The position numbers were made by a program, and so were the translations under genes. Below, piece after piece: positions 2,906 through 57,167 of a DNA stretch of 64,000 bases. How positions within the stretch are numbered: the stretch's first letter is position 1; every line of letters begins with the position of its first letter. This DNA is from Melioribacteraceae bacterium. GTDB lineage: Bacteria; Bacteroidota; Ignavibacteria; Ignavibacteriales; Melioribacteraceae. Under the pieces are notes generated by a model. It did not search any database and was not told the origin of the DNA. It saw only the letters and a list, made by a program, of their open reading frames with translations. The stretch is from the NCBI GenBank assembly GCA_016342755.1, contig JAEINS010000005.1:62001-126000 (forward strand), in the 5' to 3' direction.

Positions 2906-3655
2906 TTAGTATTGTATGTTAATTCCAAATTTCACTGTTAGTTCATCCGAATAAGGGAAATTATTATATCCCAAGCCATTTGTTTCCGCAATGTAGACAT
3001 AGTTAATTTCGGTTTTCAGATGAAAATTTTCAAATATTTTATAATTGATTAACAATCCGCCAAAAAACACAAGCGGATTTCCTTTTTTAACCGGAGCAAT
3101 ATTTCTATAATTATAACTGAATTGATAATCTATTTCTTCGAAACTTTTTGTCCATGATTCAGTTATATAAAACCGGCGTGTATAAAAATAAATTCCGCCG
3201 CCAATTACAGGAGCGACAGTAAACTTATCCGAGATATCGATATTATAATTTAAGTCAATTAAAACGGGTATTAAATCCATCTTCTGAATATTACCAATTT
3301 TGGCGGAAAGTTCCGGGAAAGCATTTAAGTTTGACTGGATTGTATTTTTGTATCTTGCGTCCCAAAAGAACCATCCCCATTTATCAATTGCATCGTTTTG
3401 ATGTATTGTATACAGACTGTAACCGGCATTAACACCTATTGATAAATTGTTGTACAAATTAAATTTCAATTTAACTCCGCCGCCAACCGCCGCCGCATCT
3501 TTAAGATCTAATCTTTTAGACATTACAGTGCTATAGCTCATATATGGCTCAATGCTTTGAAGCTGCCCAAAAGTTTCTGTAACACAAATCAAAAACAATA
3601 AGGGTAATAAAGATTTCAAAAAATTCCGTTTAATCAGACTTTCATTTCTTTGCAT
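2906..3655 (-). CDS. Outer-membrane beta-barrel protein (OmpW/PorT-like style)
   Basis: The protein has 249 residues, with an N-terminal signal sequence (hydrophobic FLKSLLPLLFLICVTETFGQ). The body is a string of amphipathic beta strands (for example GVNAGYSLYTIH, APVIGGGIYFYTRR, FHLKTEINYVYIAE) and ends in FGINIQY with a terminal aromatic residue, as expected of a porin-like barrel. Its ATG overlaps the stop codon of the PorV-family gene by one base (TAATG), so the two are translationally coupled. I do not recognise a named family. The coupling suggests it works with the PorV-family barrel. Confidence 0.65.
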   Translation of the reverse strand: MQRNESLIKRNFLKSLLPLLFLICVTETFGQLQSIEPYMSYSTVMSKRLDLKDAAAVGGGVKLKFNLYNNLSIGVNAGYSLYTIHQNDAIDKWGWFFWDARYKNTIQSNLNAFPELSAKIGNIQKMDLIPVLIDLNYNIDISDKFTVAPVIGGGIYFYTRRFYITESWTKSFEEIDYQFSYNYRNIAPVKKGNPLVFFGGLLINYKIFENFHLKTEINYVYIAETNGLGYNNFPYSDELTVKFGINIQY

Positions 3656-4632
3656 TATAAAACCCCCAACTGAATTGTAAATCTTGAAACATCACCTAAT
3701 CTTCCATAATCCGAATAGGCAAAATCGAAATTAATTGGGTAGCTTAGTTTAGGATTAATTCCAAAGCCGGCACTATAAGATTCTTCATCACAGAAAAATT
3801 TATAACCGCCGCGGAAAGTAATCATGTTCAGCCACGAAACTTCTCCGCCAATATTTAGTCTTTCATCTGTGTCGTTAGGATGAAGCGCTTCCATAACTAA
3901 TGTAACTCTGTATTCAGATTCCATATCGCCAAACAGTTCCATTGCCGCACCTAATCTTAATACGGATGGCATTTTAAATTCATCATTTATAAATTTTGCA
4001 TCAACACCAAAGTTCTGTATACTCATTGCAATTCTTAATGATGAAAGACCTGTATAATAAAGCACTCCGCCATCAAATAGAATATTGCTTGCTTTATAAA
4101 TATCAATTTTTTCTTCGGCATATTTTAATGTAACTCCAAAAGAAAATTTATCCGTAAGTCTTCTTGAATAGCTTAAACCAACAGCCAGAGAGTTTGCGTT
4201 AAAATCGCCTAATATATTAAACACTTTTTGACCACCGCCAACTGTAGTTCTTGGCATGGAGCCATAATCTAACATTATGACTCCAATACCAATAATTCCA
4301 TACGGGGACTCGTATGAATAACTCATAGTATAATGTTTTATATCTGCTAACCATGGCGCGTACGAAACTGAGAATGAATGTTTCTGGTTTGAATAACCTA
4401 ATGCCGCCGGATTCTGAAATACCGCGTCCGAGTTTATATCGGACAAGGCGATTGATGCTTCACCTAAAGCAGCAGTTCTTGCTGATGCCGGAAGTTCTAA
4501 AAAAGTAAATCCGGCAGTTGCGGTTTTCTTAAACTCTTGCGCGTTAAGATTAACACTGACCAATACTATTACGCCTATAAATAGTACTCTTATATAAAGG
4601 GTTTTTATTGTATTCATTAATTTCATTTTCAT
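3655..4632 (-). CDS. PorV/PorQ-family outer-membrane protein
   Basis: The protein has 325 residues. A signal peptide (YIRVLFIGVIVLVSVNLNAQ) precedes the family hallmark FTFLELPASARTAALGEAS, followed by DAVFQNPAALGYS. PorV in type IX secretion is a barrel that shuttles T9SS cargo to the outer surface. This copy sits directly after the FlgD-tail surface protein: its first ATG abuts the upstream TAA, and in-frame ATGs at 4632, 4626 and 4617 are all possible starts. A second family member lies in the same gene order at 49928-50941. Both encode a late segment with HPND and a run like NIGGEVSW. I infer that it is a dedicated partner for the neighbouring surface protein rather than the core secretion-machine PorV. 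Confidence 0.85.
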   Translation of the reverse strand: MKMKLMNTIKTLYIRVLFIGVIVLVSVNLNAQEFKKTATAGFTFLELPASARTAALGEASIALSDINSDAVFQNPAALGYSNQKHSFSVSYAPWLADIKHYTMSYSYESPYGIIGIGVIMLDYGSMPRTTVGGGQKVFNILGDFNANSLAVGLSYSRRLTDKFSFGVTLKYAEEKIDIYKASNILFDGGVLYYTGLSSLRIAMSIQNFGVDAKFINDEFKMPSVLRLGAAMELFGDMESEYRVTLVMEALHPNDTDERLNIGGEVSWLNMITFRGGYKFFCDEESYSAGFGINPKLSYPINFDFAYSDYGRLGDVSRFTIQLGVL

Positions 4633-6693
4633 TTACCTGACAATAGCTAGTTTACCAATTTTAGTACCTAAGTCCGACTCAACATGGAATATATAAACAC
4701 CACTTTTTACAAATTGTCCAAAATCTGTTATCTGATCCCACGAAACAATTGCCCCGTCACCACTAGAAACTTCAATAGTTTTAACAAGATCGCCGCGCAC
4801 AGTATAAATTCTAATAGTGCAAGGATTGGGAATATTAACAAATTGTATTTGGTCACCTTCGCCAGGGCGTGAACTTCCCTGCCCGATAACAAATGGATTT
4901 GGAACAACAAGAATTTCATCTAGAGTTTCTTTTGGAGGTAATGTAGCAACAAATGGTTCGCTCATTCTATTTGCAAAAATTGAACTTTCCATTGGCGGAA
5001 CTACATTAGAATTTGTTGCCGAAAATCTTGCTGATGTATTTATTGACCATGAATCACGACCTAAATCAAAAACTGTTAAAGCATAATAATACGATTTCCC
5101 AATTTCTACATCGCTATCGGTATAGATATATTTATTACCGGACAAAAATTCTGAATCACCTACAAAAACTGTATCAACAATATCCCATGGTCCAATAGGC
5201 AAATATGATGATCTGTAAAGTATATAACCTTCAAGATCAATTTCTCCATCATCAGGATCAGCTACTCCTTCTTCAGAATCGTTCCAGGTAATTATATTTG
5301 CCACCACTTCATTTTCTCTGTTATAATCTACGCTAAATGACGGCGCTGCCGGAGGGTCAGGATGATTAAGGTTATTATCATAAGTAAATTTAGCTCTATC
5401 AGCAGTAGCATAAAATATGTCTCTGCTATTTTTGTTAACTGTATTAATAGGATTATTTTCAACATCAATAGCTTCTCTATATGGAATACCGTCAACCATT
5501 TCAGCAAACACAATTTTAATTGAATCACCAGGCAGAATATCGTACGGTCCAACCGACATAAGAGACCACATGCGTGATTTTCGCATTAGTTCATGGGTGT
5601 TTTTCTCAACATAGTTTGCAACTTGTGTAAGGTCTTCTAAAACTTTGTATCTAGATTCTGTAGCGCCAATTCCCGTAAATGGACCGCTCCAGTCAGCCGA
5701 ACTGCTTCCGGCAGACCATGCTGTTTGTCTTATAGATGTTACATCACCGTTTAAGTTTGGAGACGCATATAATAATTTAATTCCCACAAATGCAGGTGCA
5801 AGATATTCTCCCGTTGGATCTAAAGATCCGTCAGCCTGCCTTACTAATGGTCCCATTGATAAAGCTTTACCAAATGACTCGTCATTTTCCGGTGTTTCTG
5901 GATAATCCCAGGCTTTACCATAAATCAGGTTTCTTTTTTTATCATATGTAAAAAGTGTATTTCTTGCGCCGGAAGTTAATGACGGAAATAATACTCCCCA
6001 CGATCTTGAATTACAATGCATACCGTAATTTAACGCGGCATAAAATCCATATAAAGTATCCGCTAAAAAGCGTTCATCATTAATTTGCGCTCTTAACTCA
6101 TTAGAAATATTTTTTATTACATATTCATGTATAATGTAGTTTTCATCCAGCTTAGAACCACTCCATTGATGAACTTTTCTTTTTACACGTACAGGAAGCA
6201 TTCTTGCAATTTGATATTCATCTACATCGTAATTCAAATTATATTCCCATACAGTTTCAATAACTTCCTCACCAACATTCGGGTCTTCTTTTAACCAGTT
6301 GTTTCCATTATTGCCAAATAATTTTCTATGAGAAGTAACTTTATATTTGCTTCCGGCTTCTGAAACAGATCCTTCGGATAAAGACCAGTCTTCAACTGTT
6401 AAAACACTGTCACGATATTTTTTTGCGCCAACAATCAATCCGCCAGTTGTTAAATATGAAGCCGCGCCACCGATGTTTTCACTTATTAAAGTCGGATCAA
6501 AACCAGGCCAGTCAAGTCCAATTCCTTTATCACTCCAATTAGAAAACGGAGGACCCGATCTGGTATAGCTTAATGTATGCCACAACTTTCCTCTGTTAAG
6601 AATAAGAGACGATGATTCTACCTGGGCAAAAAGTGTATCAGATAAAAGCAAAATAAGTGCGGCTATAAATATTTTTCTAAAAATTAGTTTCAT
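4633..6693 (-). CDS. Large surface/secreted protein with FN3-like region and FlgD-type C-terminal tail
   Basis: The protein has 686 residues. MKLIFRKIFIAALILLLSDT is the signal peptide. Residues of roughly 430-550 look like a fibronectin-III-type segment (EGYILYRSSYLPIGPWDIV, SYYYALTVFDLG). The last 90 residues (ILVVPNPFVIG, NPCTIRIYTVRGDLVKTIE, KSGVYIFHVES, KIGKLAIVR) are the FlgD-like Ig fold used as a sorting or attachment tail in this lineage. There is no enzyme motif. It is flanked by the TonB receptor (32 bp upstream) and the PorV-family gene (0 bp downstream). The same domain plan occurs at 50976-54467. By position it takes the place a SusD-like binding lipoprotein would have, but it is not homologous in any way I can see. 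Confidence 0.75.
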   Translation of the reverse strand: MKLIFRKIFIAALILLLSDTLFAQVESSSLILNRGKLWHTLSYTRSGPPFSNWSDKGIGLDWPGFDPTLISENIGGAASYLTTGGLIVGAKKYRDSVLTVEDWSLSEGSVSEAGSKYKVTSHRKLFGNNGNNWLKEDPNVGEEVIETVWEYNLNYDVDEYQIARMLPVRVKRKVHQWSGSKLDENYIIHEYVIKNISNELRAQINDERFLADTLYGFYAALNYGMHCNSRSWGVLFPSLTSGARNTLFTYDKKRNLIYGKAWDYPETPENDESFGKALSMGPLVRQADGSLDPTGEYLAPAFVGIKLLYASPNLNGDVTSIRQTAWSAGSSSADWSGPFTGIGATESRYKVLEDLTQVANYVEKNTHELMRKSRMWSLMSVGPYDILPGDSIKIVFAEMVDGIPYREAIDVENNPINTVNKNSRDIFYATADRAKFTYDNNLNHPDPPAAPSFSVDYNRENEVVANIITWNDSEEGVADPDDGEIDLEGYILYRSSYLPIGPWDIVDTVFVGDSEFLSGNKYIYTDSDVEIGKSYYYALTVFDLGRDSWSINTSARFSATNSNVVPPMESSIFANRMSEPFVATLPPKETLDEILVVPNPFVIGQGSSRPGEGDQIQFVNIPNPCTIRIYTVRGDLVKTIEVSSGDGAIVSWDQITDFGQFVKSGVYIFHVESDLGTKIGKLAIVR

Positions 6694-6724
6694 TATAAAT
6701 TCAGTTTAGTTAAAATTTATTTTC

Positions 6725-9700
6725 TTAAAACCCTATCCCAAGGGTAAAAAACACTTGTCTGGGAATATTTCTGTAAGCTGTGTAAGGAGCAACGGCATAA
6801 GCAAGTCTGCCCGGATCATTACCGGCATCCGCAACTGTAATTCCATCCTCTACCCAGTTTCTTATGTCTTCTGACTGGGACATTGGAGTAAGCCATTTAT
6901 TATCAAATAAATTCATTACTCTTACACCAAAAATAACTTTCACATCATCAATTCTAATATCCTTTGTAAAATTAAAATCGGCATTGCTTTCTATTGGATA
7001 TCTTTTGTTCCTTACAACATCTTTTACCTGGGAAAATTCTGTAATGTAGGTATAAGGAATTCCTGACTGCGCCGAATATGTGAAACTAAAAACACTGTTC
7101 TCAAAGGGTTTAAATCCCCACAATTCAAATCCTTCCCCTTCAGAAACACTATATTGCAATAATCCTCTTAAATTATGGGTTCTATCCCACGATGCAATAA
7201 ATTCGCCTGTAAATGTTCTTTCCGAAAATTCTCTGGAATCATCGGGATAAATATATTCAGAGCCATAATTGCCGGTAGTTGTCTGAGAAATACTATAGCT
7301 TAATCTATATGCCCAGTTTACCGATTTAATCGATTCAAACGTTAGCTCAAAGCCGACTGTACTTCCAAACGCATTATTTGCATAAGTATTATAATAGTAG
7401 AGAGGAGTATTATCGCCGCTAAATCCTGCTGTCTGAAATGTACTTCCTGTATAGGATACCATTTTCTGTGTGCCTATTTGTGTTGCTCTGTCATTATAAT
7501 ATAGAACGGCATCTAATCTATGATTGTCGTCAATTACCTGCTGTAATCCAAATTCATAGTTTATAGTTTTTTTTGGATTAAGATTAGGATTGCCAATACC
7601 CGACCATCCGCGCGAAGTTCTATTAGAAAGTGCCTGTGAAAAAATTGGCATCGAAGCAAAGTGACCGTAGTAAAATCTGAACGCGGTATTTTCTCCGATA
7701 GGGAAAGACACTCCTACCCTTGGTAACAAGATATATTGCAATTCAGATTCTTTTGTTTCTTCATTTCCTAATTCCGGCGGACCGTCTATACCGGTATATA
7801 ATACACTATGTTTATCAACAGGAACTTTTGCCTGAAAATTATAAACTTCAGCACGTAACCCAATATTGGCTATCATACCTTCATATTCCATTTTATCCTG
7901 AAAATACGCGGCAAAGTTGAAAGGATAGGCTTTATAGTATTCAGCAAAACCATTTCTTGCAACTAAACTGTTGGCCTGAAAACTTGAATTTACACCGTTA
8001 CTGAACATATCCCAATACGTAAAGCTTAATCCGGTTTTAATAAAGTTAGTTTGATTCATCTGATTTGAGTAATCAATTTTAACGGCAAAGTTTTCGGTTC
8101 TTTGATCTTGGTAATAATTTGTACTAAAGCTTTGAGGAGGGAAAAAATAATCTTTTTCCCACCAGATACCATCTTTTAATATTGTTCCCATCGGATCATT
8201 TAAGCTGTCCAGCCTGTCTATCTCCATTCCAAATCCCGGAAGATATTTATAAGGCAATTCATATTTTTCATTTTGATGTGATACAGTAGCTTCGGCAAAT
8301 GAATTGTTATTGATTGTATAAACCCAGTTTATACTCTGCGCAACAGTTTGCTCTTCGCGTACAGGATCAAAATTAACAAGATATTTTTTTGATACGCCGG
8401 GAGGTGTAAAAGCCAGACCGGACCATCTAATATCCGAAGATCCCGACCAAATACCGCCAACGTAATCTTGATAACTTACCATCGCTTTAATTTTATGTTT
8501 AATTGCAGGCTTGTATGTAACATTAAGAATATAATTTTGGGTTATCTGATTCTTTTCAGGTGTTGGTAATCTGGTTGGATTTTTTTTGTATTCACCCGAT
8601 ATATAAAACTTAAGCAGGTTATGATCTTTTCCTAACGGACCGCCAAAACCAAATAAATATCTGGTATATGATTCATCCCTGTAATCGTAAACACCTAATG
8701 GATTATCATCTGAAGGTTCATGGTTATCTACCCAGACATCATGTGCCCAGGTAAGATCGCGGGTAATAAGTCTTTCATATTCTTCCGGATCTGAATTTTT
8801 CAAATGGCCATATTTATCATCCAGTTTAAGATCCGTAATAAGAAATTCTCTGTTCTCATCAGATATCCAGCTATTGAGATTACCCCATTTTTGCCATTCA
8901 AAATTATTTTTGCTATAAATGTAATCCCCATAATGGTATTGACCGGATGGTCTGTACTCTACTCTAAATTCGCCATTAAATTTAGGGCCGCCGTCTTTTA
9001 ACACAACTTTTACTACACCAGCCTGGGCATTTCCATATTCGGCATTAAAACCGCCCGAGATCATTTGCAATTGCGCAACACCAAGCGGATTAACATCATA
9101 CTTCCAGGAGTTGTTGGCTTTTTCAGCACCAAAAGAACCAGGAACACTTGTGTTAGAATTTGTCTGCTCAACTCCGTTTATCTGAAAATTTACCTCATGC
9201 GAACCTGAGCCGCGAATTGAATAATCACCTTTTTCGTTTTTCTGAAATCCGGCTGATAAATCTAAAGCACCTCTTAATCCTTCAATAGGTGCAGCTTTAA
9301 TTTGTTCATCATCAATATTTGTTGCCGTAGCGGTTCTGTCTTTTATTATGGCCTTTTTCTTAGCAGTAATTATAACTTGATCCATCTGTACAGATTCGTC
9401 CTGTAATTCAAATTCTAATTCGGTTGTTCTATCAATATTAACAACAACACCTTTCTGAACAACTTTCCCATAACTTATCATACTTGCAACAACATTATAT
9501 TTACCGGGAGTAACATTCAGAATTATAAATCTGCCTTTTTCATCGGTTGCTGAACCAACTGTGGTTCCCTCAAGAAAAACATTTACCCCTATTAAAGTTT
9601 CGTTTGTTACTGCGTCGTAAACTGTTCCGGTAATCTTTCCATTCTGAGCATAAACCTGTGCCGCTAAAAACAGCGTGATTAGAAAACATTTGATCATCTT

Positions 9701-9727
9701 TTTGGCAGTTATATTATTATATAACAT
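6725..9727 (-). CDS. TonB-dependent receptor with N-terminal carboxypeptidase-regulatory-like domain
   Basis: The frame encodes 1000 residues. A signal peptide (MIKCFLITLFLAAQVYAQ) begins at the second Met (codon 9697), so that may be the real start; neither start has a clear ribosome-binding site. Residues of about 29-115 are a CarboxypepD_reg-like beta sandwich (GKITGTVYDAVTNETLIGVN, TDEKGRF). A plug domain follows (GDYSIRGSGSHEVNFQINGV, GGFNAEYGNAQAGVVKVVLK), then a 22-strand-type barrel to the C-terminus. The length and layout match SusC-like importers of oligosaccharides or other large ligands. No SusD-like gene follows; the next gene is the FlgD-tail protein instead. Import of a glycan fragment is inferred from the enzymes nearby. 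Confidence 0.9.
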   Translation of the reverse strand: MLYNNITAKKMIKCFLITLFLAAQVYAQNGKITGTVYDAVTNETLIGVNVFLEGTTVGSATDEKGRFIILNVTPGKYNVVASMISYGKVVQKGVVVNIDRTTELEFELQDESVQMDQVIITAKKKAIIKDRTATATNIDDEQIKAAPIEGLRGALDLSAGFQKNEKGDYSIRGSGSHEVNFQINGVEQTNSNTSVPGSFGAEKANNSWKYDVNPLGVAQLQMISGGFNAEYGNAQAGVVKVVLKDGGPKFNGEFRVEYRPSGQYHYGDYIYSKNNFEWQKWGNLNSWISDENREFLITDLKLDDKYGHLKNSDPEEYERLITRDLTWAHDVWVDNHEPSDDNPLGVYDYRDESYTRYLFGFGGPLGKDHNLLKFYISGEYKKNPTRLPTPEKNQITQNYILNVTYKPAIKHKIKAMVSYQDYVGGIWSGSSDIRWSGLAFTPPGVSKKYLVNFDPVREEQTVAQSINWVYTINNNSFAEATVSHQNEKYELPYKYLPGFGMEIDRLDSLNDPMGTILKDGIWWEKDYFFPPQSFSTNYYQDQRTENFAVKIDYSNQMNQTNFIKTGLSFTYWDMFSNGVNSSFQANSLVARNGFAEYYKAYPFNFAAYFQDKMEYEGMIANIGLRAEVYNFQAKVPVDKHSVLYTGIDGPPELGNEETKESELQYILLPRVGVSFPIGENTAFRFYYGHFASMPIFSQALSNRTSRGWSGIGNPNLNPKKTINYEFGLQQVIDDNHRLDAVLYYNDRATQIGTQKMVSYTGSTFQTAGFSGDNTPLYYYNTYANNAFGSTVGFELTFESIKSVNWAYRLSYSISQTTTGNYGSEYIYPDDSREFSERTFTGEFIASWDRTHNLRGLLQYSVSEGEGFELWGFKPFENSVFSFTYSAQSGIPYTYITEFSQVKDVVRNKRYPIESNADFNFTKDIRIDDVKVIFGVRVMNLFDNKWLTPMSQSEDIRNWVEDGITVADAGNDPGRLAYAVAPYTAYRNIPRQVFFTLGIGF

Positions 9728-9778
9728 AGTATGCTTGCACTTTATTAGTTAGTTAATTTTATTTTATGAAATGAGGCA

Positions 9779-9836
9779 GGAAATGTCGGCATAAGACATT
9801 CCCGTTCTCAGCAAGTGGTTATTTTTCTAATCCACT
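9779..9836. other. Two hairpins in the spacer between propeller and TonB genes
   Basis: The first inverted repeat pairs AATGTC (9782-9787) with GACATT (9795-9800), extended by flanking G-C pairs with one mismatch. The second pairs AGTGG (9814-9818) with CCACT (9832-9836) around an AT-rich loop. They lie just after the stop of the highly placed first gene (9838-11271) and before the TonB gene. Neither has a strong U-run in the transcribed (minus) sense, so I read them as transcript-processing or partial-attenuation structures rather than full terminators. Confidence 0.4.
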
Positions 9837-9837
9837 A

Positions 9838-11271
9838 CTATTTTACTAAAATCATTTTCTTAGTAACTTTTAAATTTTCTGTTATTAAGGAGTAGAAATA
9901 AACGCCGCTATTTAGTCCTGAAGCGTCAAAAACTTTTGAATGGTTTCCAGCACTCATTCTATCGTTAATAACTGTAGCTATTTCTTTTCCTAATACATTT
10001 GTAACAACTAATTTAACATTGGTTGCTTTGGGCAGATTAAAACTAATTTTTGTTGTGGGATTAAATGGATTCGGATAATTTTGTTCAAGTTTAAATTTGT
10101 TTATAACTTCTTGATCATCATCAACACTTACCATTCCCTTTTTAAAAACAAACGCGCACTTTGCCCATAAATCAACAACATACGCAACTGTAGCATCTTT
10201 GTTTAGAGCAACATCAGCAGGTCCTGTCATTGGAGCACCATCCACAACTGGGAAATCTTTACTGTTTGAGCTTGGAAGATCATAAGCTTCAATTGCGTTA
10301 ACACCGTCTAATTCAAACGCCTTAACCCACAATCTCGTTGAATCGGTTCCGGCTACCCATAACAGCTCATCTTTGTCGACAGTTATACCATAAGGCATCT
10401 GATCCATAAATGACAAATAGCCATCAAAATCTACTATCCTTTCAGGAGTATAATTAAATGGTTCAGTTTGAACACCACCCTGCCAAAGAGCAATACCGCC
10501 GGTTGTCTGATCTATAGATAAAGAATTTCGTGATGTAAAAACTCTTGAAGTTGTTGTTGAATAATCATCGCCAGGAACTAAAGCAACATCTCTAATAATA
10601 TCAGCGCCATCAGTATGTACGCCACCGGGTTCAGTTGGATTATCAACATTCCACTCAGCGCCGGGATACGGAGGAATATATGACGCATAATCAGTACCAT
10701 CATATTTATGAGACCAGTTGTAAGTTCTTATTGATGTACCATAAGCAACACCGGTAAATGCAATGGTATCGGATGACATTGCCAAACCATGTATATAAGA
10801 ACCATATCCACCAGTGCCGCCAAAGTTAATGTATGCACCATATTGTTCAACATTAGCGGTATCCGCATTAATGTATCTGTACATTGCGGCAACAGTTGTT
10901 GGTTTATACTTGGGATAAGGCTGATTCATACTTACAAATACATCAGTTCCCAAAGTTGAAATTCCTCTAATAGCTCCAACATTTCCTGTTAAAGTATCAG
11001 AATCTCCATTTCTATCATAATCAATTAATTTTGTAAACAATGTATCATCCGGTTCAGCATAAAAAATTGCATTAATAGGAGCCGGTCCGACTGCTTTTGA
11101 TGAAGTAATGTACAAACGCCCGTTTTCATCTACATCACACAAGTAAGGTCTTACAATACTATCTTCAACGGGAAAAGATATTTTATAAGCATAAGTCCAA
11201 TCATCCTGAGCTAGTAGTTTATCAGCTGATAAAAATGTAAATAAACATAGAATTAGTAATAGTTTTTTCAT
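9838..11271 (-). CDS. Secreted beta-propeller-like protein with T9SS type A sorting tail
   Basis: The protein has 477 residues. It starts at 11271 behind GAGG; MKKLLLILCLFTFLSADKLL is a signal peptide. The central part has repeated short beta segments typical of an NHL/propeller-type protein (CDVDENGRLYITSS, YGITVDKDELLWVAGTD, DVALNKDATVAYVVD). The tail LEQNYPNPFNPTTKISFNLP ... SGVYFYSLITENL ... KKMILVK is the type A sorting domain, so it should be exported and displayed by type IX secretion. It is the first gene of the leftward operon, next to the divergent regulatory region. Function is unknown; ligand binding at the cell surface is a guess. Confidence 0.75.
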   Translation of the reverse strand: MKKLLLILCLFTFLSADKLLAQDDWTYAYKISFPVEDSIVRPYLCDVDENGRLYITSSKAVGPAPINAIFYAEPDDTLFTKLIDYDRNGDSDTLTGNVGAIRGISTLGTDVFVSMNQPYPKYKPTTVAAMYRYINADTANVEQYGAYINFGGTGGYGSYIHGLAMSSDTIAFTGVAYGTSIRTYNWSHKYDGTDYASYIPPYPGAEWNVDNPTEPGGVHTDGADIIRDVALVPGDDYSTTTSRVFTSRNSLSIDQTTGGIALWQGGVQTEPFNYTPERIVDFDGYLSFMDQMPYGITVDKDELLWVAGTDSTRLWVKAFELDGVNAIEAYDLPSSNSKDFPVVDGAPMTGPADVALNKDATVAYVVDLWAKCAFVFKKGMVSVDDDQEVINKFKLEQNYPNPFNPTTKISFNLPKATNVKLVVTNVLGKEIATVINDRMSAGNHSKVFDASGLNSGVYFYSLITENLKVTKKMILVK

Positions 11272-11358
11272 CTGATCCTCTTTATAAAATTGAATAAATT
11301 ATTTTCAATTACACAAAATTTGTCGATGCTAAATTTGAGATAAATCGCACTAGTTACA

Positions 11359-11401
11359 ACTACATCATTGAGTAGTTTTGCCACTACCCTATTATGTAGT
11401 G
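11359..11401. promoter_or_regulatory. Tandem dyad operator in divergent promoter region
   Basis: Two copies of the dyad ACTAC-N8-GTAGT lie at 11359-11376 and 11383-11400, with centres 24 bp apart. The second copy extends by one more pair to CACTAC/GTAGTG. They sit in the 194-bp gap between divergent operons (start codons at 11271 and 11466). Identical half-sites with identical N8 spacing, twice, are unlikely to arise by chance and fit binding by two dimers of one regulator controlling both arms. The regulator is not identifiable in the window. A possible -7 element TAGCTTTC (11428-11435, compare Bacteroidota TAnnTTTG) lies between the operator and the rightward start. Confidence 0.65.
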
Positions 11402-11465
11402 TTATTAAAAGTTTTCTTTCTTTAAGTTAGCTTTCATTAAAAAAACAATCAGACATTGAAACACT

Positions 11466-12941: not shown

Positions 12942-12972
12942 ACTTGAAAATTTGGCATTCCTAAAGGAAGAA

Positions 12973-48415: not shown

Positions 48416-48468
48416 AAAAACCTTTTGCGTGAACAATTTCAAAACACTTTCTATTTAGCATTAATAAT

Positions 48469-49854: not shown

Positions 49855-49927
49855 TTAAATAATCCTTTAATTTTACAATGCTGTTATAAATCGATAAATA
49901 TAATAAATTAACATCACAAGATATTAA

Positions 49928-50941
49928 CTATAAAATTAAGTGCAGCGTATACTTTTGAATACTATTAAAATTACCAAATGATTCATAAGCATAATCTAAA
50001 CGAATTCCATAGCTCTCAAGCAGTAATCCGCCGCCAAGTGTTAATCCTTCTTCGCTGTCTTTTAAAAATAATGATCTGTAACCGGCTCTAAACGCTAATA
50101 GATTTTTATATCTAAATTCAGTCCCGACATTAACACTTTCAGCGTTATCATTAGGATGAAGCGCGTCAGCAGCTATTATAACCTTACTATTTTCATTATT
50201 TATCAATTCATAAGATAATCCAAAACGGAATAATAAGGGCAGATCGTACCTGCCTGTTTCAATTCTGGAATTAATCTGATCGTTATTTCCGTTAATTGTC
50301 TGATCAATATCCACCTTAACCAGAAGATCGTCGCCAGACATCTGCATCTTTGTCCCAAAATTTGAAATATTCATACCAAGTCTTAAACCGGGAAAAGGTG
50401 TTTCATAGAGAAATCCAATATCAACGGCCATTCCGCTCGCACTGGAATTATAAATATTCTCTTCAACATATTTGCCGGTAAATCCAATCATGAATCTATC
50501 TGTTAACATTCTGGAATACGATAAATTGATTGCAATACTTTTTGCCGAAAATAATACTCCGGTTCCTTCCGGATTATTCTCTGTAGTCTGCTCAAATTCA
50601 CCATAATCAATATGCATTATACCAACGCCAAAATTACCAATATTAGAAATTGGGAAAACTACCCCGCCGTAATTATAATCAATATCGGCAATCCAGTCTG
50701 AATGATTAACAATAATTTCAGTATTATTTAATTGCGCTGCACCGCCAACATTCCAAAACATAGCAGAAGCATCATTAGCTACTGCTGTAAATGCGCCTCC
50801 CATAGCCTGGGCTCTTGCACCAATGCCTATTGTAAGAAACGGCGCGGCTGTAGTTGCAACCTTTGTTATATTTTGCGCAAAACTTATATTAAAAATGGCC
50901 AAGCAGATAAAACAACTTATCTTTAGAATACGTAATTGCAT
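49928..50941 (-). CDS. PorV/PorQ-family outer-membrane protein
   Basis: The protein has 337 residues. A signal peptide precedes TTAAPFLTIGIGARAQAMGG AFTAVANDASAMFWNVGGAA, the PorV/PorQ-type opening. Later strands AADALHPNDNAESVNVGTEF and AFRAGYRSL echo the copy at 3655-4632 (LHPNDTDERLNIGGEVSW). Again it follows a FlgD-tail protein gene, here by 34 bp, and precedes glycoside-hydrolase genes. I infer a cargo-specific surface-anchoring or export partner. Confidence 0.87.
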   Translation of the reverse strand: MQLRILKISCFICLAIFNISFAQNITKVATTAAPFLTIGIGARAQAMGGAFTAVANDASAMFWNVGGAAQLNNTEIIVNHSDWIADIDYNYGGVVFPISNIGNFGVGIMHIDYGEFEQTTENNPEGTGVLFSAKSIAINLSYSRMLTDRFMIGFTGKYVEENIYNSSASGMAVDIGFLYETPFPGLRLGMNISNFGTKMQMSGDDLLVKVDIDQTINGNNDQINSRIETGRYDLPLLFRFGLSYELINNENSKVIIAADALHPNDNAESVNVGTEFRYKNLLAFRAGYRSLFLKDSEEGLTLGGGLLLESYGIRLDYAYESFGNFNSIQKYTLHLIL

Positions 50942-50975
50942 TATTTAATCCTTCTTAAAATTCTTAAGAACCTGT

Positions 50976-53900
50976 TTATTTTATAACAGCAAACTTCCCG
51001 ACTTTTTCTCCTATATCCTCAGCATCTATGTGATATATATAAATTCCGTAAGATACATCTAATTGCTCCTCACTCATTAAATCCCAATCTGCCGTACCGT
51101 TTGTTATAGGGGAATCATGATAAATTGTTTTTACTAGTTCTCCCCGGGCAGTATAAATTTTTATAGTACACTTGCCGGGTAAATTAATGAAGTGTATGGA
51201 ACGATTGCCACGCCCGCTTGAATAAGTATTTCTTGCTTCCCATGATGCCGCGGCAATATATGGATTTGGAACAACTTTTATATCTTCCAATTCTTCGTTT
51301 GCTTTTACTCTGTCTATTTTGGGAACTGAAACAGTAAACTCAAAAGAATCGGACTTTAGAAACGGTTTTATTATAGGAAGATTTAAAACATCGCCAGCCC
51401 TTGGAAGTTCGGAAAGAGCATCGGAACTAACTATTTTAATTTGATAAGTAAGAGTCAGTTTGCTGCCATCAGGTTCAAATAATAATATCATATCATTTTC
51501 ATCTAGTAATCCTTTTTCCTCTTCGGTATCGGCTGTTTTTTCACCTGATTTGTATTCATAGAAATTGAATTTAACATAACGGTTCTCAGTTAAATTTTTC
51601 ACTCTAAAATTAACCGGCTGTTTAAGATCATTTGGCAAAGTAAATATGGCTATGCCTGCAGAAGTATCAACTCCTTTTTCACCAATCTCTAACTGATAAT
51701 GAGCCGGATATGCTTTTCCCTGTGCAAACCCTTGCGATACACGTGTCCATCCCTGACCTGAGGCTAAGTCCGGCATTAATATGTTTCGGGTAGAATCCTG
51801 CCATTTAACATTTTGCGCGTCTGCTCTTGTCATCCAGTCATTAAATATCGATACTTTTATACCGTCGAAAAGAAACGCATCTAAATCAATATTAGAATCG
51901 TTTTTGAATAACGTATCCGGGAAACCTACTCCGCTTGAATTATCAATTATATTAAGAGCAGTAGTTTTTGCTTCAATTTTTTGATTGTCTTCGAATGTAA
52001 TTTTATATGTATGCCCTTTAAGCAGTGCTGAAGGATCTATAACTTCGGCCAGTATCTTGCCTGTGGCATCACCCGAAGTATGTTTAATGTCTTTCATTAA
52101 ATTACCCGCCGGTATATATCCCGCGGCAGGTGATTCCGGTCTTACTTTTACAACATTACTGCCAAGCTCTACAACACCGCCCGCTGTTATTGCTGCGAAT
52201 TTTGCAGTTTCGGCCGGCTGCAGAATTTTTAATTCACCGGTAGACGGATCAAAAGCATTCAATCCCCTGTCATATGCAGTAACAGCATAAAAATATGTGT
52301 ATCCGTTTTTTACTGTTGTATCAACAAAGGTATGATTTAATCCTGTATTATCGCCAAGATAAAAAATAGTTCCCAGCTGTTCATCAATTGAGCTAAAAAA
52401 TCCGCTGTCTGCATTTACAATATCAAATTGCGCAATTGGTACATCGGCCACCTTACTGCCAAATACATTTGTTACAATGCCTGTTTCATCCCAGGTAGGA
52501 TAAGTGGCTCTGTAGATTTTATAACCTTCAAAGTCGTAACCATCACCTGTTACTATGTCCGATAGTTTATCAAAACTTTCCTCAGAGTTAGAATCCCAAT
52601 AAAGCGTTACTTTATTTTCTCCGGCAAAAGCTTTAAGTGTAGGCAGTTTTGGCGCTTTAGCAAAATTATAATCATTATCATAAATTAACTGAACTGTATT
52701 TTTTGTTCTAAATATATCCTGTTCATCATTTCCGAAAAAGAACGCGAGAGAAATATGTTCTGTTTGCCCTGCACGCAAAGGAAAATAAGCAGTTCCATAA
52801 ATAAAATCACCGTCAACATTCTGCACCGCATCATTAAAAAAGCCCGGTTGTAATGTTTCCCAAAGCTGATCATCATTTTGAAGACGAATAAAATCATACG
52901 GTTCAAAGAAAAAGAAACTGGTTAATCCTATCTGGTCAGCTTCATCAATATCAGTCTTATCAATGTTAGGTTCGCCTGGCAATCCGGTATCAGTAATTTT
53001 TCCATCTTCCCCAATCAGATATCCCGAGGTTGGTAATCCGTCACCTTCACCAGCATCGTTAGTGCCTGGTTTTCCATCTAAGCCAACATCATCAATGTCA
53101 GCGTTCCAGTCGTTATCATTATCAATACCGTCATTTCTCGATTCATCAATCATTGCGTCTGATAAATTATCAGCGAAATAATTATTGTAGGCCAGACCTA
53201 TATGAGGATTTTCTTCATCAATTAAGCCGTTCTCATTATTATCTATTCTATCGTTTGGTATTTCCGTATTTTCATCAATTAAGCCGTTCAAATTATCATC
53301 TATATTATTATACGGAATTTCCTTTAGTATATCGTTTGGTGCTATGGATATAACTTTATCATTTACATTAAATGTAATTCCTTCAGCCGGCATTACTGAT
53401 TTGGTTCTTGGAAATGATGGGTTTGAATAATCAATTAAAATAATTTCCATTCCTGCACTTGCAGTTTTAGAAGCTAAAATACTTTGATCAATCAGATTTT
53501 GACCATTAACCGCGTCATTATCGTCATCATATCCGTTTAAGGCGTTGCCGGGGCTTTCCAAAAATGCATAACCCAGATAGGCAACTGGAGTCCAGCCTGT
53601 ATTACCTATATTGTCCGAATCCCATGAGTATGTAATATTTTCTCTTGCATCGAATCGGGAATTATCATCCTGTGTATCGCCGTCACCGCCTATGGTTGTC
53701 CCAACTATCATTCCAAATACAGTTTTATCATAATTTTTCTGGCTAATATTTGTTATATCGTAAATCCAGAATATTGTGTTTTGAGCTAAAGTCTGCGACC
53801 ATTGTAGTCCGCGCACATTTGCTAATAAACCGAGTCCGCCTCTTGCTTTGTCATCCGGATCAGGATAAAATCCGTATGCATTTATAAATTCCTGGTCGCG

Positions 53901-54467
53901 GCTGTCATCCATAACCCAATAACTTTCCTGATCAGCATTAAATTGATCTTTCCCAAAAAAGCCGTTCCACTGTTTAGACCATCCGGGATCATTAACATCG
54001 GTTTCACGATCCGGCCAATATTCTGGCCACGAACTTTTTTTATGGCTCATAGCTACAGATTCCCCGTCGGGATTATCAAATCCCGGCAATGGTTCCCAGC
54101 CCCAAAAAACTGTAGAGTTATTAGGATCATAATCATTATCCCCTCTGGGACCATCTGAAACAGTAACCGGTGTAATTTTGGTTGATCCGTCAATTTCAAT
54201 TTCGGCTCCAACCATAACACTTATATCGCCAACATAATAATGCCCCGAGTTAATAGGCCATTCACCGCCAAAATCTTCAGCCGGATTTTCACGCCCGACT
54301 AAACCATAATTAAAAAATGTTGTTCTAACCTGATTACCGCTGTGCACATGTTTTTTTCTAGCAGTTGGTTTTCCCTTTATGGTCTTATAATACTGGCTAT
54401 AAGAACACACAGGCATTATTAGTATTGCTGTAATAAGAATTGCTATGTATTTAAAATTATTCTTCAT
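50976..54467 (-). CDS. Large surface protein with Ca-type Asp repeats and FlgD-like C-terminal tail
   Basis: The protein has 1163 residues. It starts behind AGGG with a signal peptide (YIAILITAILIMPVCSYSQ). Residues of about 330-490 are crowded with Asp/Asn repeats (NGYDDDNDAVNGQN, IDDNLNGLIDENTE, NDRIDNNENGLIDEENP, GIDNDNDWNADIDD), like calcium-binding thrombospondin-3/dockerin-type loops. An FN3-like segment follows (FEGYKIYRATYPTWDE, YTYFYAVTAYDRG). The end (DIKVVPNPYIAAASW, GKCTIKIYTARGELVKTIYH, YGIYIYHIDAEDIGEKVGKF) is the same FlgD-like tail as in the protein at 4633-6693. It has no catalytic motif. By position between a TonB receptor and a PorV-family barrel it may capture glycan for uptake. 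Confidence 0.78.
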   Translation of the reverse strand: MKNNFKYIAILITAILIMPVCSYSQYYKTIKGKPTARKKHVHSGNQVRTTFFNYGLVGRENPAEDFGGEWPINSGHYYVGDISVMVGAEIEIDGSTKITPVTVSDGPRGDNDYDPNNSTVFWGWEPLPGFDNPDGESVAMSHKKSSWPEYWPDRETDVNDPGWSKQWNGFFGKDQFNADQESYWVMDDSRDQEFINAYGFYPDPDDKARGGLGLLANVRGLQWSQTLAQNTIFWIYDITNISQKNYDKTVFGMIVGTTIGGDGDTQDDNSRFDARENITYSWDSDNIGNTGWTPVAYLGYAFLESPGNALNGYDDDNDAVNGQNLIDQSILASKTASAGMEIILIDYSNPSFPRTKSVMPAEGITFNVNDKVISIAPNDILKEIPYNNIDDNLNGLIDENTEIPNDRIDNNENGLIDEENPHIGLAYNNYFADNLSDAMIDESRNDGIDNDNDWNADIDDVGLDGKPGTNDAGEGDGLPTSGYLIGEDGKITDTGLPGEPNIDKTDIDEADQIGLTSFFFFEPYDFIRLQNDDQLWETLQPGFFNDAVQNVDGDFIYGTAYFPLRAGQTEHISLAFFFGNDEQDIFRTKNTVQLIYDNDYNFAKAPKLPTLKAFAGENKVTLYWDSNSEESFDKLSDIVTGDGYDFEGYKIYRATYPTWDETGIVTNVFGSKVADVPIAQFDIVNADSGFFSSIDEQLGTIFYLGDNTGLNHTFVDTTVKNGYTYFYAVTAYDRGLNAFDPSTGELKILQPAETAKFAAITAGGVVELGSNVVKVRPESPAAGYIPAGNLMKDIKHTSGDATGKILAEVIDPSALLKGHTYKITFEDNQKIEAKTTALNIIDNSSGVGFPDTLFKNDSNIDLDAFLFDGIKVSIFNDWMTRADAQNVKWQDSTRNILMPDLASGQGWTRVSQGFAQGKAYPAHYQLEIGEKGVDTSAGIAIFTLPNDLKQPVNFRVKNLTENRYVKFNFYEYKSGEKTADTEEEKGLLDENDMILLFEPDGSKLTLTYQIKIVSSDALSELPRAGDVLNLPIIKPFLKSDSFEFTVSVPKIDRVKANEELEDIKVVPNPYIAAASWEARNTYSSGRGNRSIHFINLPGKCTIKIYTARGELVKTIYHDSPITNGTADWDLMSEEQLDVSYGIYIYHIDAEDIGEKVGKFAVIK

Positions 54468-54476
54468 AAAAATACC

Positions 54477-57167
54477 CTAGTTAAAATTAAATGATAATCC
54501 AAGCTGCACACGGCGAGGAGATGAATAAAAATCGGGTCTGATTATATATCTCGGATCAGCATCCGCTCCGCTTACAGAACTTTGAAGTGTGTACGTTGCC
54601 CGCCCGGTGTCATCCCAGACTCCCTGCTCATTCCTGGTATCTAATAGATTAAAAACTTTAAAGAATAAAGTAACACTGGTTTTATTTTTATCGATAGAAA
54701 AACTGAATTCTTTACTCATCTGATAATCTATTGTAAACAGATTTGGTCTGCGTTTACTGTTTTCTGTTAATGCCAAAGATCCCGTTGTTACATCGGCACC
54801 GCGCTGTGTACCCTGAACCGGATTTGGAGTGTATGGAAGTCCGCTTTCAAAACGCGCAATAATACTAGCCGATATACCTTTATACTCGCCAAAAACATTC
54901 GCATTAATAACATGCGATCTATCCCAATCCATCGGGATTATATTCCTTCGGGGTTCCTTATTTGCCTGTATATCGTTGTATCCGTCAATAGGGTCAGAAG
55001 CACTTCCTTCGGCAACCTGAAAAGTATAAGATACATTTGCGGCAAAATGATTGGCAAAAGTTTTTTTAAGTGATAGTGTAATACCGCGTATATTTGCATA
55101 ATCACGGTTTTCATATTGAGAGTATAACACGTCCGGACGATATGTTTCCTGAAGTAATGAAGTTCCTACCCAGTCTCTAATATCCCGGTAAAAACCTGTA
55201 ATATCAAAAGCAATTAATTCTGATATTTGCTGTTGAAGACCAATTTCGTACATAACAGTTTTTTGCGGATCTAAATCGGCATTACCCAATAAATTAAACT
55301 GTCCTCTATTAATTTTAAAACCCGGGTTCTCATAAAGCAGCCGGAATTGCGGGAATTGTAAAAAATGCCCGTACGAAGCATGAATTACACCCGCGTCACT
55401 AATAGGAAACGACATTCCTAATCGTGGAGAAAACCCATATTTTGCTTTAGTTTTTTTATACCAGATATCTGTTAGTGAATTTGGGTTTTTATCAACATAT
55501 TCGTCTCTTAGCGGTGTATATCTGCTTGGATCTTTTGGATCCGTAAGTATATTCCCTTTCGAATCGAAATAATCAAATCGTAATCCTACATTAATAATAA
55601 AATCCTCGAACTCTATTTTGTCCTGAATATATGCTGCGATATCGAACGGTGTAAATTCATACTTGCCAAAATTTATATGATTTTCCTGAGGTATAATCGG
55701 AGTAAAATTTGTATCGGACGGACTGCCGTCAATTGTATTATAATTAAGCATGTTTAGTTTGTGTAATCTCCCTTCAACACCAAATTTAATTAAATGAACG
55801 GAAGTAATCTGAGAAGTTATATCAAACTTTATATTATCTGTAAGAGTATTTCTTAGAAAGTGATTGTTTATTTGTCCGCCATTTGAAAATTCAAAAGAAG
55901 ATACGGCAAACCGCGGATCGGAATTATCAACAAATCTTTTATCAGCAGGATTCTCATAAACATAGTGTTCATACTCTTTTTCGAATCTGCCGTATTTAAC
56001 TGTATAAAAAGTTGTTTGGTTTAAAGTGTGATTAATGGATATTGAGCCGTTATATCCCTTCTGAAATCTGTTGAGGTTTGCATCCGGATTAAATTTATAA
56101 AAATGATCGTATAAATTATATTTTCTGTTTTCATAATTAAATCCAAATCTGACCTTAAAAGTCGGGATAAGATTCCATGTAACTTTACTTTGAAGGCTTG
56201 TCCATTTATTTCTATTCATTGTTACAAATTCATTATCACCTATAGAACCGTCAGTATTATATTCACGCTTACCGTAAAAATATCCGTCATCGTTGTTTTC
56301 TCTAAAATTCACAAAGAATGTTACTGCATCGTTTGTTAAAGGAATTGGGCCTGATAAACTAAAACTGTAATTGTAAATAGCCGTAGCGTTAACATCGTCA
56401 ATATTCATGAATATTTCTTTATCATCCGAAATATAATCGCCCATGTATGCCGATACTTCCCCATTATATATTTTTCCGCCGTCTTTAGTAACCACGTTAA
56501 TAATGCCCGACATTGCCTGACCATATTCAGCATTAAACGTACCACTAATAACCTGCATACTCTGAATCGCGTTATTCTCTATTTCAACTCCGTTTGTACC
56601 GTCAAAAACATCTGTAACCGAAAGTCCGTCAACCTTAAAAGACACTTCCGAGGATCGTCCTCCTCTTATATGAAGACCATCATCGCCGCGTGTAACTCCC
56701 GCCTGAATCTGAAGTATATCAACAAAATCTTCTGCCGGTAATGATTTAATATCGTCTGTGGTAATAATTGCCTGAGATGATGTTAGATCTTTACGAATAA
56801 TTTCCCGACCTGAAGTAACAACAACAGTTTCTCCCAACTCTAATGTTTTCTCTGTCATTTCAATATCTTGTCTCGTAGTAAAATCAACATTTACCATCAG
56901 ATCTGAGACAACAACCGACTGATAACTTATATAACTGAATTTAATATTGTATCTGCCGGGCGGTATATTTAAGAGCAAATATTCCCCGTCAACGTCAGTA
57001 GATGCTCCGTAGAAAGTACCTTCTAACATTACGTTTACACCAATTAATGGTTCACCCGTTACAGCATCAACAACTTTTCCGGTTATCTTTCCGGTAGTAC
57101 CTGCATCAAGGTTAGTATTTAACATAAGTGTTAAAAATATTAGAAAAGATACAAATTTGATTCTCAT
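54477..57167 (-). CDS. TonB-dependent receptor with carboxypeptidase-regulatory-like N-terminus
   Basis: The protein has 896 residues. A signal peptide precedes GKITGKVVDAVTGEPLIGVN and TDVDGEYLLLNIPPGRYNI, a CarboxypepD_reg-like domain. The plug (DDGLHIRGGRSSEVSFKVDG, SGTFNAEYGQAMSGIINVV) and a full barrel follow, ending PRRVQLGLSFNFN. It resembles the receptor at 6725-9727 in layout, with a shorter barrel. It should import maltooligosaccharide or other glucan fragments, judged from the GH13 and GH97 genes in the operon. It lies 9 bp before the FlgD-tail gene. Confidence 0.92.
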   Translation of the reverse strand: MRIKFVSFLIFLTLMLNTNLDAGTTGKITGKVVDAVTGEPLIGVNVMLEGTFYGASTDVDGEYLLLNIPPGRYNIKFSYISYQSVVVSDLMVNVDFTTRQDIEMTEKTLELGETVVVTSGREIIRKDLTSSQAIITTDDIKSLPAEDFVDILQIQAGVTRGDDGLHIRGGRSSEVSFKVDGLSVTDVFDGTNGVEIENNAIQSMQVISGTFNAEYGQAMSGIINVVTKDGGKIYNGEVSAYMGDYISDDKEIFMNIDDVNATAIYNYSFSLSGPIPLTNDAVTFFVNFRENNDDGYFYGKREYNTDGSIGDNEFVTMNRNKWTSLQSKVTWNLIPTFKVRFGFNYENRKYNLYDHFYKFNPDANLNRFQKGYNGSISINHTLNQTTFYTVKYGRFEKEYEHYVYENPADKRFVDNSDPRFAVSSFEFSNGGQINNHFLRNTLTDNIKFDITSQITSVHLIKFGVEGRLHKLNMLNYNTIDGSPSDTNFTPIIPQENHINFGKYEFTPFDIAAYIQDKIEFEDFIINVGLRFDYFDSKGNILTDPKDPSRYTPLRDEYVDKNPNSLTDIWYKKTKAKYGFSPRLGMSFPISDAGVIHASYGHFLQFPQFRLLYENPGFKINRGQFNLLGNADLDPQKTVMYEIGLQQQISELIAFDITGFYRDIRDWVGTSLLQETYRPDVLYSQYENRDYANIRGITLSLKKTFANHFAANVSYTFQVAEGSASDPIDGYNDIQANKEPRRNIIPMDWDRSHVINANVFGEYKGISASIIARFESGLPYTPNPVQGTQRGADVTTGSLALTENSKRRPNLFTIDYQMSKEFSFSIDKNKTSVTLFFKVFNLLDTRNEQGVWDDTGRATYTLQSSVSGADADPRYIIRPDFYSSPRRVQLGLSFNFN

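Follow-up and report, generated by a model that had tools for sequence, protein, structure and literature searches.

The window analysed here, a 64,000-nucleotide stretch of the Melioribacteraceae bacterium assembly GCA_016342755.1 (contig JAEINS010000005.1, positions 62,001 to 126,000), carries two sets of three genes, each coding for a TonB receptor (T), an exported protein with an Ig-like tail (M) and a barrel of the PorV/PorQ family (P). We consider it probable that T, M and P work as one surface module, in which M is a surface glycan-binding subunit that reaches the outside through the Type 9 secretion system (T9SS) and sits on its own barrel beside T. The computations revealed a conserved triad, the folds of M and P from one of the window sets (triad B), a tail type confined to triads, and covariation of P with both the tail of M and T; export of M, its retention without cleavage, glycan binding and uptake by the triad are what we infer. 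In the proposed mechanism, M would leave the cell through the T9SS by means of its C-terminal sorting domain (CTD), which would be neither carried by the general PorV shuttle nor cut by PorU and would remain bound to the extracellular loops of the cognate P, much as PorQ is reported to hold PorZ and PorV to hold PorU. P would also touch the extracellular rim of T, so that the carbohydrate-type N-domain of M would be held beside the TonB channel, and M would act as the substrate-capturing partner, doing for T what SusD does for SusC, mostly with glycans and in triad B probably with alpha-glucans. A sequence-only reading of the window had already proposed that the tail protein travels with a barrel of its own, and this part of it gained ground from the wide spread of the triad, the position of M beside T and P, the T9SS CTD fold and the tail-barrel covariation.

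Conservation and distribution of the triad

All six triad open reading frames were recovered on the minus strand (Table 1), with gaps of 31 (triad A) and 9 bases (triad B) between T and M and of 0 (A) and 34 bases (B) between M and P, which confirms the two sets first described from the sequence, their common direction and their short spacing. The order proved real, but the count of two was too low: when 18 stretches around the PorV_fam members of the host genome (4.73 Mb, 56 contigs, listed as 100% complete) were read, all 18 members scoring over the cut-off, T-M-P order was found at 13 places, together with one split cluster in which M lies two genes away from T-P. The two most divergent host M proteins, those of L011 and L013, could be assigned on the basis of the tail. 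With a profile of the triad tail, the 14 host triad M proteins scored at least 57.2 bits and the next best protein 41.5; since 11 of the 14 were rows of the profile itself, it is the remaining three and the score gap that make this a test. Likewise, a T profile built from the triad B receptor and 53 T proteins of other genomes gave at least 215.7 bits for the best piece of each of the 14 triad receptors and at most 131.7 for everything else in the host genome, and the model for ordinary type A tails listed 150 places (150 of 173 candidates scored), two of which are triad M proteins. This tail type is thus confined to triads. The host PorU, PorV and PorQ all exceeded their equivalog cut-offs (PorV gene, 274.9 bits with NF033710; PorQ gene, 265.8 bits with NF033711), and SprA reached 1036 bits after its pieces were joined, so that a T9SS is present and the triad P proteins form a separate, additional group of barrels.

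Among 214 M loci, collected with M as bait and best matches first (L019–L048 left out, no de-duplication, so that some sources occur in the set twice), 185 had both T and P adjacent, 173 in the order T-M-P and 12 in the order T-P-M; ten others had one partner and ended at the edge of the stretch, and 19 lacked one or both partners, some of these also at an edge. The outcome that would have counted against the earlier reading, tail proteins lying mostly away from TonB and PorV genes, therefore did not occur. In 79 of the 80 named loci an M gene was present; it was preceded by T in 65 (5 lay at an edge) and followed by P in 60 (8 lay at an edge). When P served as bait, 20 further PorV_fam genes were chosen in descending order of score, passing over one near-duplicate and any place fetched before, and 17 of the 20 loci held both T and M, nine in order on one strand and eight in the split layout, which recurs in other genomes; of the remaining three, one had M without T and two had neither. 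A later set of 71 M genes, partly from genomes already seen, contained 65 with both partners, four with P only and two with T only. Median gaps over 170 triads were 15 bases between T and M and 11 bases between M and P.

Two layouts deserve description in their own right. The layout of L003 consists of a short M, a protein of ~700–835 amino acids (in L003 with a type A tail), a protein of ~460–610 amino acids (in L003 with no Pfam family), T, P and a protein of ~355–380 amino acids (in L003 with NHL repeats), and is fixed in nine loci (L003, L253, L254, L257, L261, L262, L263, L269 and L272). The T-P-M variant (L063, L066, L067, L068, L069 and L083) has an extra protein of 966–1033 amino acids directly upstream of T, with a weak M-like match in two loci.

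The triad is widespread beyond the host, as M relatives were present in 146 of 149 genomes in a wider draw from the class; rarity outside this genome, which the earlier reading had named as a refuting outcome, did not occur. In a sample of 99 genomes of the phylum, where capped scoring turns some per-genome counts into minimum values and part of the M matches from other classes are weak, M was found in 65 genomes, SusD in 51 and PorV_fam in 87 (77 over the cut-off); 27 genomes had M only, 38 both M and SusD, 13 SusD only and 21 neither. All 24 genomes of the host's class in this sample had M, and five had SusD, never in more than two copies. M and SusD counts were inversely related (rho −0.70) and M and PorV_fam counts directly related (rho 0.86) across the 78 genomes outside family f14, and means of 28 families gave −0.62 and 0.84, respectively. 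Family f14 itself (21 genomes of 2–3 Mb) had no M, no SusD and at most weak PorV_fam matches; its members are possibly autotrophic green sulfur bacteria, which would fit a role of the triad in nutrient uptake. M-rich genomes (48 genomes) had a median of 13 PorV-family genes. The best 80 of 543 confirmed contigs placed M under at least seven phylum-level labels, including Ignavibacteria, other Bacteroidota, Calditrichota, KSB1, Neomarinimicrobiota, WOR-3/Stahlbacteria, Fermentibacteria, Gemmatimonadetes, Rhodothermales, Balneola and single others, these labels being the names in metagenome-assembled genome records, some of which may be misbinned.

The absence of SusD noted for the window extends to the whole host genome, in which PF07980, the one SusD model searched, had 0 matches. 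As a general description, "SusD-free" holds for this genome but not for the group, since 38 of the 65 M-bearing genomes and 33 of 79 genomes of the host's own family carry SusD, in the latter mostly as a single copy. Ten SusD loci were read and showed no triad gene within flanks of only about 1.5 kb. For Melioribacter roseus, a published starch operon has SusCD according to a portion of PMC3534657; the suspicion that its SusC/D/E genes (Mros0761–0759) were a mislabelled triad was dropped, as genome G265, which belongs to the same family and probably to this species, has a true single SusD near base 880,000, about the place expected from the gene number. This SusD (C1:880105–880854) agrees with the published sus operon. 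Set beside the alpha-glucan surroundings of triad B, that starch operon suggests that both systems can do the same work, and we regard the triad module as an alternative to SusD and not as its strict replacement.

Folds and families of the three proteins

Both window P proteins exceeded the cut-off of 90 bits for NCBIfam PorV_fam, with 197.6 and 221.5 bits, in agreement with the family first assigned to them, and stayed below the equivalog cut-offs for PorV (NF033710; 82.7 and 90.4 bits, cut-off 250) and PorQ (NF033711; 133 and 111.9 bits, cut-off 220). The predicted model of the triad B P (pLDDT 88.1, 14 barrel strands as read off its strand list) is closest to CTD-bound PorV (8gl6, Z score 33.6) and then to PorV 6h3i (Z 33.0), followed by FadL-family proteins (Z 26.6–30.6) and FadL-type barrels associated with BAM (Z 25–27); a PDB sequence search with P found PorV at E 1.7e-28. 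The receptors are TonB-dependent, with CarbopepD_reg_2 and Plug over the Pfam cut-offs in both window T proteins, and they fall far below the SusC/RagA model TIGR04056 (35.1 bits for triad A and 70.6 bits for triad B, cut-off 368.25). Colicin I and siderophore receptors headed the PDB sequence matches of T, among which a SusC homolog ranked further down.

M is poorly covered by existing models. Neither window M matched a Pfam family at E 0.01, the body of M matched no NCBIfam model in five M proteins, where only the triad A tail gave matches, all below cut-offs, a PDB sequence search found no M relative (best E 0.21), and viral contigs searched with the triad A M yielded none. The type A sorting domain TIGR04183 gave 17.6 bits for the triad A M (cut-off 23) and no match for the triad B M, and two other triad M proteins of the host exceeded it, with 27.7 and 24.1 bits. 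The triad A tail also resembled the NCBIfam PorZ model (E 1.1e-6), at 27.4 bits far under its cut-off of 260. At E 0.01 the NCBIfam scan gave no type B CTD or PorP/SprF family, though it was not verified that such models belong to the library searched. A lipobox-like pattern was seen in three of 180 M proteins, using a simple pattern and no signal-peptide tool.

The triad B M was modelled with AlphaFold2 from 70 M sequences (mean pLDDT 85.5, pTM 0.77), its N-domain within the whole protein, and this model is the source of all fold evidence on M. Its layout comprises an N-domain (~31–600), a fibronectin type III (FnIII)-like region that we place at ~604–760, and a CTD (~1050–1163). Residues 1054–1163 align to the PorU CTD 6za2 with Z 9.4 (22% identity over 90 residues), and a higher Z of 11.5 was obtained with PorZ (5m11; 93 residues in the range 617–1163, 23% identity); the modelled tail accordingly has a T9SS CTD fold, a likeness that by itself is no proof of binding. 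The tail had been called FlgD-like from its sequence; Pfam FlgD_ig did not match it, but the Ig-like nature of the fold is borne out by the model. In VIA-align 2, the first 20 matches (Z 13.7–20.1) were mainly dextran dextrinase, glucodextranase, glycan phosphorylases and CGS, presumably enzymes of the glycoside hydrolase (GH) families GH15 and GH94. The best was the dextran dextrinase 9ju0 (Z 20.1, root-mean-square deviation 3.1, 260 residues), followed by 8rf9 (CGS, which we take to be cyclic glucan synthase; Z 19.8), glucodextranase 1ug9 (19.4), disaccharide phosphorylases (16–18) and galactose mutarotases (~13). From the aligned ranges, some of which reach 762 or 1086, we read the matched region as the N-domain, which in the model has the galactose-mutarotase-like supersandwich fold. 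Some of the matched folds are catalytic supersandwich proteins (mutarotases, polysaccharide lyase family 26), which would suit an M that is itself an enzyme, exported or anchored by T and P; in GH15 and GH94 enzymes, however, the supersandwich domain is the non-catalytic N-terminal one, a weak ground for exclusion, and we hold a catalytic M to be very improbable. The proposal that M binds glycan and hands it to T draws on the N-domain fold, the neighbouring glycosidases and the inverse distribution of SusD.

Covariation between the barrel and its two partners

Of 184 triads, 180 remained after removal of duplicates and were aligned (effective number 125 at 70% identity). Residue pairs were ranked by mutual information with average product correction, and the first 24 per interface were taken; after pairs with fewer than three changes on either side had been left out (6 M-P, 8 T-P and 5 T-M), 18 M-P, 16 T-P and 19 T-M pairs were compared under dependent and independent models of evolution, on a tree built without eleven candidate columns (T692 was left in). 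The strongest pair, M1064-P119, had a likelihood ratio (LR) of 75.8 with 13 and 13 changes: none of 101 K/R tails was paired with a K/R barrel, and all 50 K/R barrels had other tails. M1140-P201 (LR 54.9, 5 and 5 changes) combined an aromatic tail residue with a non-aromatic barrel residue, or Ala, Pro or Ser in the tail with an aromatic barrel residue, in 177 of 178 triads. On the receptor side, T720-P198 (LR 57.1) was mostly Glu with Lys or Lys with Asp/Glu, an acid/base grouping that fits 156 of 179 triads, and T692-P198 had an LR of 44.3. The remaining pairs reached at most 38.4 (M-P), 36.9 (T-P) and 31.5 (T-M), and 90 random pairs had a median LR of 14–17 and a maximum of 31.0.

These pairs were then examined in triads unseen in the discovery step, with groupings fixed beforehand. 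From 69 M-P pairs, 17 were dropped for barrel identity above 80% to the training set, and 39 triads were left after near-duplicate removal, 36 of them with T present. M1140-P201 held in 39 of 39, T720-P198 in 34 of 36 and T692-P198 in 32 of 36, and for M1064-P119 no K/R tail (24) was paired with an R barrel (10). Tree-based LRs were 17.0 for M1064-P119, 17.1 for T720-P198, 10.4 for M1140-P201 and 16.5 for T692-P198, all above the maximum of 8.8 among 60 random controls and three of them clearly so; M1146-P198 (LR 8.4) is not claimed. It is also conceivable that the genes are clustered without any physical interaction of their products and that the covariation stems from common descent within paralogous subfamilies; relatedness among sequences raises apparent covariation, as the median LR of the random pairs illustrates. 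We nevertheless consider this unlikely, as the key pairs lie well above random pairs on the same tree, with 5 to 18 changes at each site by parsimony, and above all 60 controls in the unseen triads, while the P sites lie on one side of the barrel and the T sites in one stretch.

In the P model, loops after odd strands hold residue 119 (loop 118–129) and residues 198 and 201 (loop 197–236). Barrels of the FadL type have both termini in the periplasm; taking this to apply to P, its three covarying sites would be extracellular. Among the top 40 M-P pairs, 30 fell on extracellular P sites (15.4 expected) and one on a periplasmic site (8.3 expected), and among the top 40 T-P pairs 21 and 3, respectively, an enrichment that is supportive only, since extracellular loops vary more. 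The T sites 666, 688, 691, 692, 720 and 723 lie in one stretch (655–730) that we read from the sequence as probably two neighbouring extracellular loop ends; five of the ten best pairs fell within it (circular-shift p 0.023), an enrichment that weakened to p 0.31 when the best 80 pairs were taken and that depends on boundaries chosen post hoc. According to the sections of PMC10994853 consulted, PorV binds CTDs through extracellular loops. The host PorV has Tyr at the P201 position, and the residue corresponding to M1140 is Ser, Ala, Thr or Gly in all 18 ordinary tails read. In seven host triads the arrangement is swapped, with an aromatic tail residue and an aliphatic barrel residue; five others resemble PorV, and the split cluster conforms to neither pattern. 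We put forward, tentatively and with slightly less than even confidence, that the triad is a third architecture of TonB import in the FCB group and its neighbours, a stable complex in which a PorV-type barrel would bridge the channel and a T9SS-delivered receptor, and in which a swapped bump-and-hole contact, an aromatic tail residue against an aliphatic barrel residue in reverse of PorV with ordinary tails, would insulate the cargo from the PorV shuttle.

A different function for the same anchoring is adhesion or surface-layer building, with M held by P in the manner of type B adhesins on SprF and T merely co-regulated. The portions used of PMC12618676 and PMC9143113 describe those type B CTD proteins that have a 14-strand barrel of their own as adhesins or putative adhesins, the FnIII-like and Asp-rich stretches of M suit adhesins, Foldseek lists one S-layer and one grappling-hook protein, and T-M covariation did not stand out. 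T is, however, kept with M and P even where the gene order is permuted (185 of 214 loci) and covaries with P, in the unseen triads as well; together with the glycosidase neighbours and the carbohydrate-enzyme fold of the N-domain, this makes adhesion improbable in our view, although it is the strongest of the competing explanations.

Several observations weigh against the proposed module of channel, barrel and glycan-binding subunit. The 19 T-M pairs (LR at most 31.5) were no better than random, and the covarying contacts of T are with P. Nominal p-values are anti-conservative, as the residue groupings were fitted to the data, so that we rely on the gap to the controls and on the unseen triads; by our own estimate, correction for some 300,000 pairs leaves only M1064-P119 safe on the discovery set. 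Four unused pairs exceeded the random maximum (M750-P25, T688-P25, T480-P209 and T801-P224, LR 32–38), the first two being left out because P25 adjoins the signal peptide, where model confidence is low. Training and unseen triads share their subfamilies, and in the unseen set M1140-P201 counts least, with only one change there. The top M-P pairs were not enriched in the tail (two of the top five, circular-shift p 0.17, none in longer lists), and the mutual-information ranking is of modest precision, given that an intra-barrel positive control found adjacent strands in seven of the top 30 pairs. Mean-field direct coupling analysis (2094 columns, 180 triads) was noisy between proteins, with only M1064-P119 of the four main pairs among those listed; it was set aside as too noisy, signal-peptide columns ranking high. 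As to the folds, the first 50 Foldseek matches of the triad B M contained no supersandwich enzyme, these appearing only upon VIA re-alignment; Foldseek ranked PorZ first (E 1.2e-6), then S-layer proteins, macroglobulin and FnIII-bearing receptors, all with a TM-score of at most 0.09 to the whole model. The short and long M proteins align with 99.9% probability over the FnIII-like region, and for their N-domains the one colinear alignment is a second, of 0.1% probability; the predicted N-domain fold is limited to the triad B evidence; the triad A P lacks the loop bearing P198 and P201, the loop there being shorter, and its state cannot be read. Finally, SusD coexists with M in many genomes, as described above, and many triad neighbours are not glycan genes.

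Neighbouring genes and comparison with known systems

The features of the window are given in Table 1. The earlier statement that glycosidase genes follow both triads stands for triad B, where a GH13 gene comes next and GH97 and GH99-like genes lie upstream, and applies less strictly to triad A, whose GHL10 gene comes only after two genes that match no glycosidase.

Table 1. Triad genes and neighbouring features, by position in the window
Feature	Position	Strand	Remarks
Triad B T, TonB-dependent receptor	54477–57167	−	896 amino acids; CarbopepD_reg_2, Plug and barrel; below SusC/RagA cut-off
Triad B M	50976–54467	−	1163 amino acids; signal peptide (by eye), supersandwich-like N-domain, FnIII-like region, beta region, C-terminal T9SS CTD (predicted)
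Triad B P, PorV/PorQ-family barrel	49928–50941	−	337 amino acids; 14 strands (predicted)
Triad A T, TonB-dependent receptor	6725–9727	−	1000 amino acids
Triad A short M	4633–6693	−	686 amino acids; FnIII-like region and tail common to long M proteins
Triad A P, PorV/PorQ-family barrel	3655–4632	−	325 amino acids
GH13 alpha-amylase	48469–49854	−	First gene after triad B
GH97 glycoside hydrolase	60596–62659	−	Upstream of triad B
GH99/WbsX-like protein	57256–58524	−	Just upstream of triad B
CBM4_9 protein	58678–60633	−	Ordinary type A Por_Secre_tail; beside triad B
GHL10 glycosyl-hydrolase-like gene	994–2187	−	Third gene after triad A
Type A Por_Secre_tail protein	9838–11271	−	Ordinary T9SS tail, for contrast; upstream of triad A

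Across genomes, 85 of 125 downstream proteins were scanned, chosen by size and residue limit; 28 carried ordinary T9SS tails and seven were peptidyl-prolyl isomerases. Among the 25 of 81 families listed, those that recurred were GH94 (5), carbohydrate-binding module (CBM) family CBM20 (5), the putative glucoamylase PF10091 (4), GH26, alpha-amylase, rhamnosidase and CBM30 (3 each), and GH66 and GH97 (2 each). If glycans were only one case and the triad imported other large nutrients by the same architecture, such as peptides, nucleic acids or metal chelates, one could account for the colicin I and siderophore receptors that head the PDB matches of T, for the fourteen host paralogs, which suggest varied substrates, and for the many scanned neighbours that match no listed glycan family; the recurrence of glycosidase and CBM families beside triads and an N-domain fold typical of carbohydrate enzymes speak against it, and we regard this broader import role as rather unlikely, slightly more so than adhesion.

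PPIC-type prolyl isomerases adjoin triads in the window (47000–48442) and in L008 (7727–9247, a match below the cut-off). A part of PMC10994853 names a prolyl isomerase as a component of the T9SS translocon complex, so a role of these proteins in export is possible. Elsewhere in the window, two tandem genes for FtsX/MacB-type permeases of 390 amino acids each (41868–43040 and 43208–44380), perhaps a duplication, are followed by a third such gene and a LolA-like gene, and a 721-amino-acid protein (34595–36760) combines a D-Ala-D-Ala-ligase-like ATP-grasp domain with an M20 peptidase domain.

SusCD is the textbook system for uptake of large glycans in Bacteroidota; SusD is the partner used by the better-known gut bacteria, whereas the triad is found in many free-living bacteria from several phyla. 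The triad resembles SusCD and RagAB in its TonB-dependent barrel with CarbopepD_reg_2, a clustered partner gene, the glycosidase context and many paralogs per genome; it differs in that the host has no PF07980 match and T lies far under the SusC cut-off, in a partner that is beta-rich and exported with a T9SS CTD instead of being a tetratricopeptide-repeat lipoprotein, and in a third member of the set, the PorV-family barrel. Another TonB system is that of BtuB and BtuG, where BtuG is a lipoprotein and neither a T9SS tail nor a third barrel is known, respects in which the triad differs. Common to the two is a TonB barrel with a surface partner other than SusD, BtuG being described as such in extracts of PMC10404256.

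Anchoring of a surface protein with a T9SS CTD on a PorV/PorQ-family barrel is known from PorU and PorZ, which are held by PorV and PorQ according to the excerpts considered of PMC5562754, where PorZ is also proposed to bind sugars; the modelled triad tail matches this fold. The triad differs from these pairs in a P below the PorV and PorQ cut-offs, in an M that is neither PorZ nor PorU, in its association with TonB receptors and in its numerous copies. Type B cargo, in the passages seen of PMC12618676, PMC9143113 and PMC12635249, stays bound on a dedicated, often adjacent FadL-type 14-strand PorP/SprF barrel; a dedicated 14-strand barrel that keeps its cargo would be shared with the triad, in which retention is presumed. 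In contrast to type B, the triad tail is similar in its Ig fold to the CTDs of type A proteins, PorZ and PorU, with no type B model among the families given for it at E 0.01, its barrel is of the PorV/PorQ family, and a TonB receptor is added. By analogy, the triad may combine the anchoring logics of PorU/PorZ and of type B proteins with a TonB receptor.

No description of the T-M-P combination was found in the open-access full-text literature, subscription papers and preprints lying outside this scope; what would be new is the means by which the surface partner of a TonB importer is anchored. Matching outer-membrane receptors have gone unnamed in Ignavibacteria, Calditrichota, Marinimicrobia and related groups. 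If true, the proposed module would assign a role to proteins whose body lies outside all Pfam and NCBIfam models, would explain why M-rich genomes hold a median of 13 PorV-family genes, and would link the T9SS to nutrient import, with predictions at the level of single residues that can be tested.

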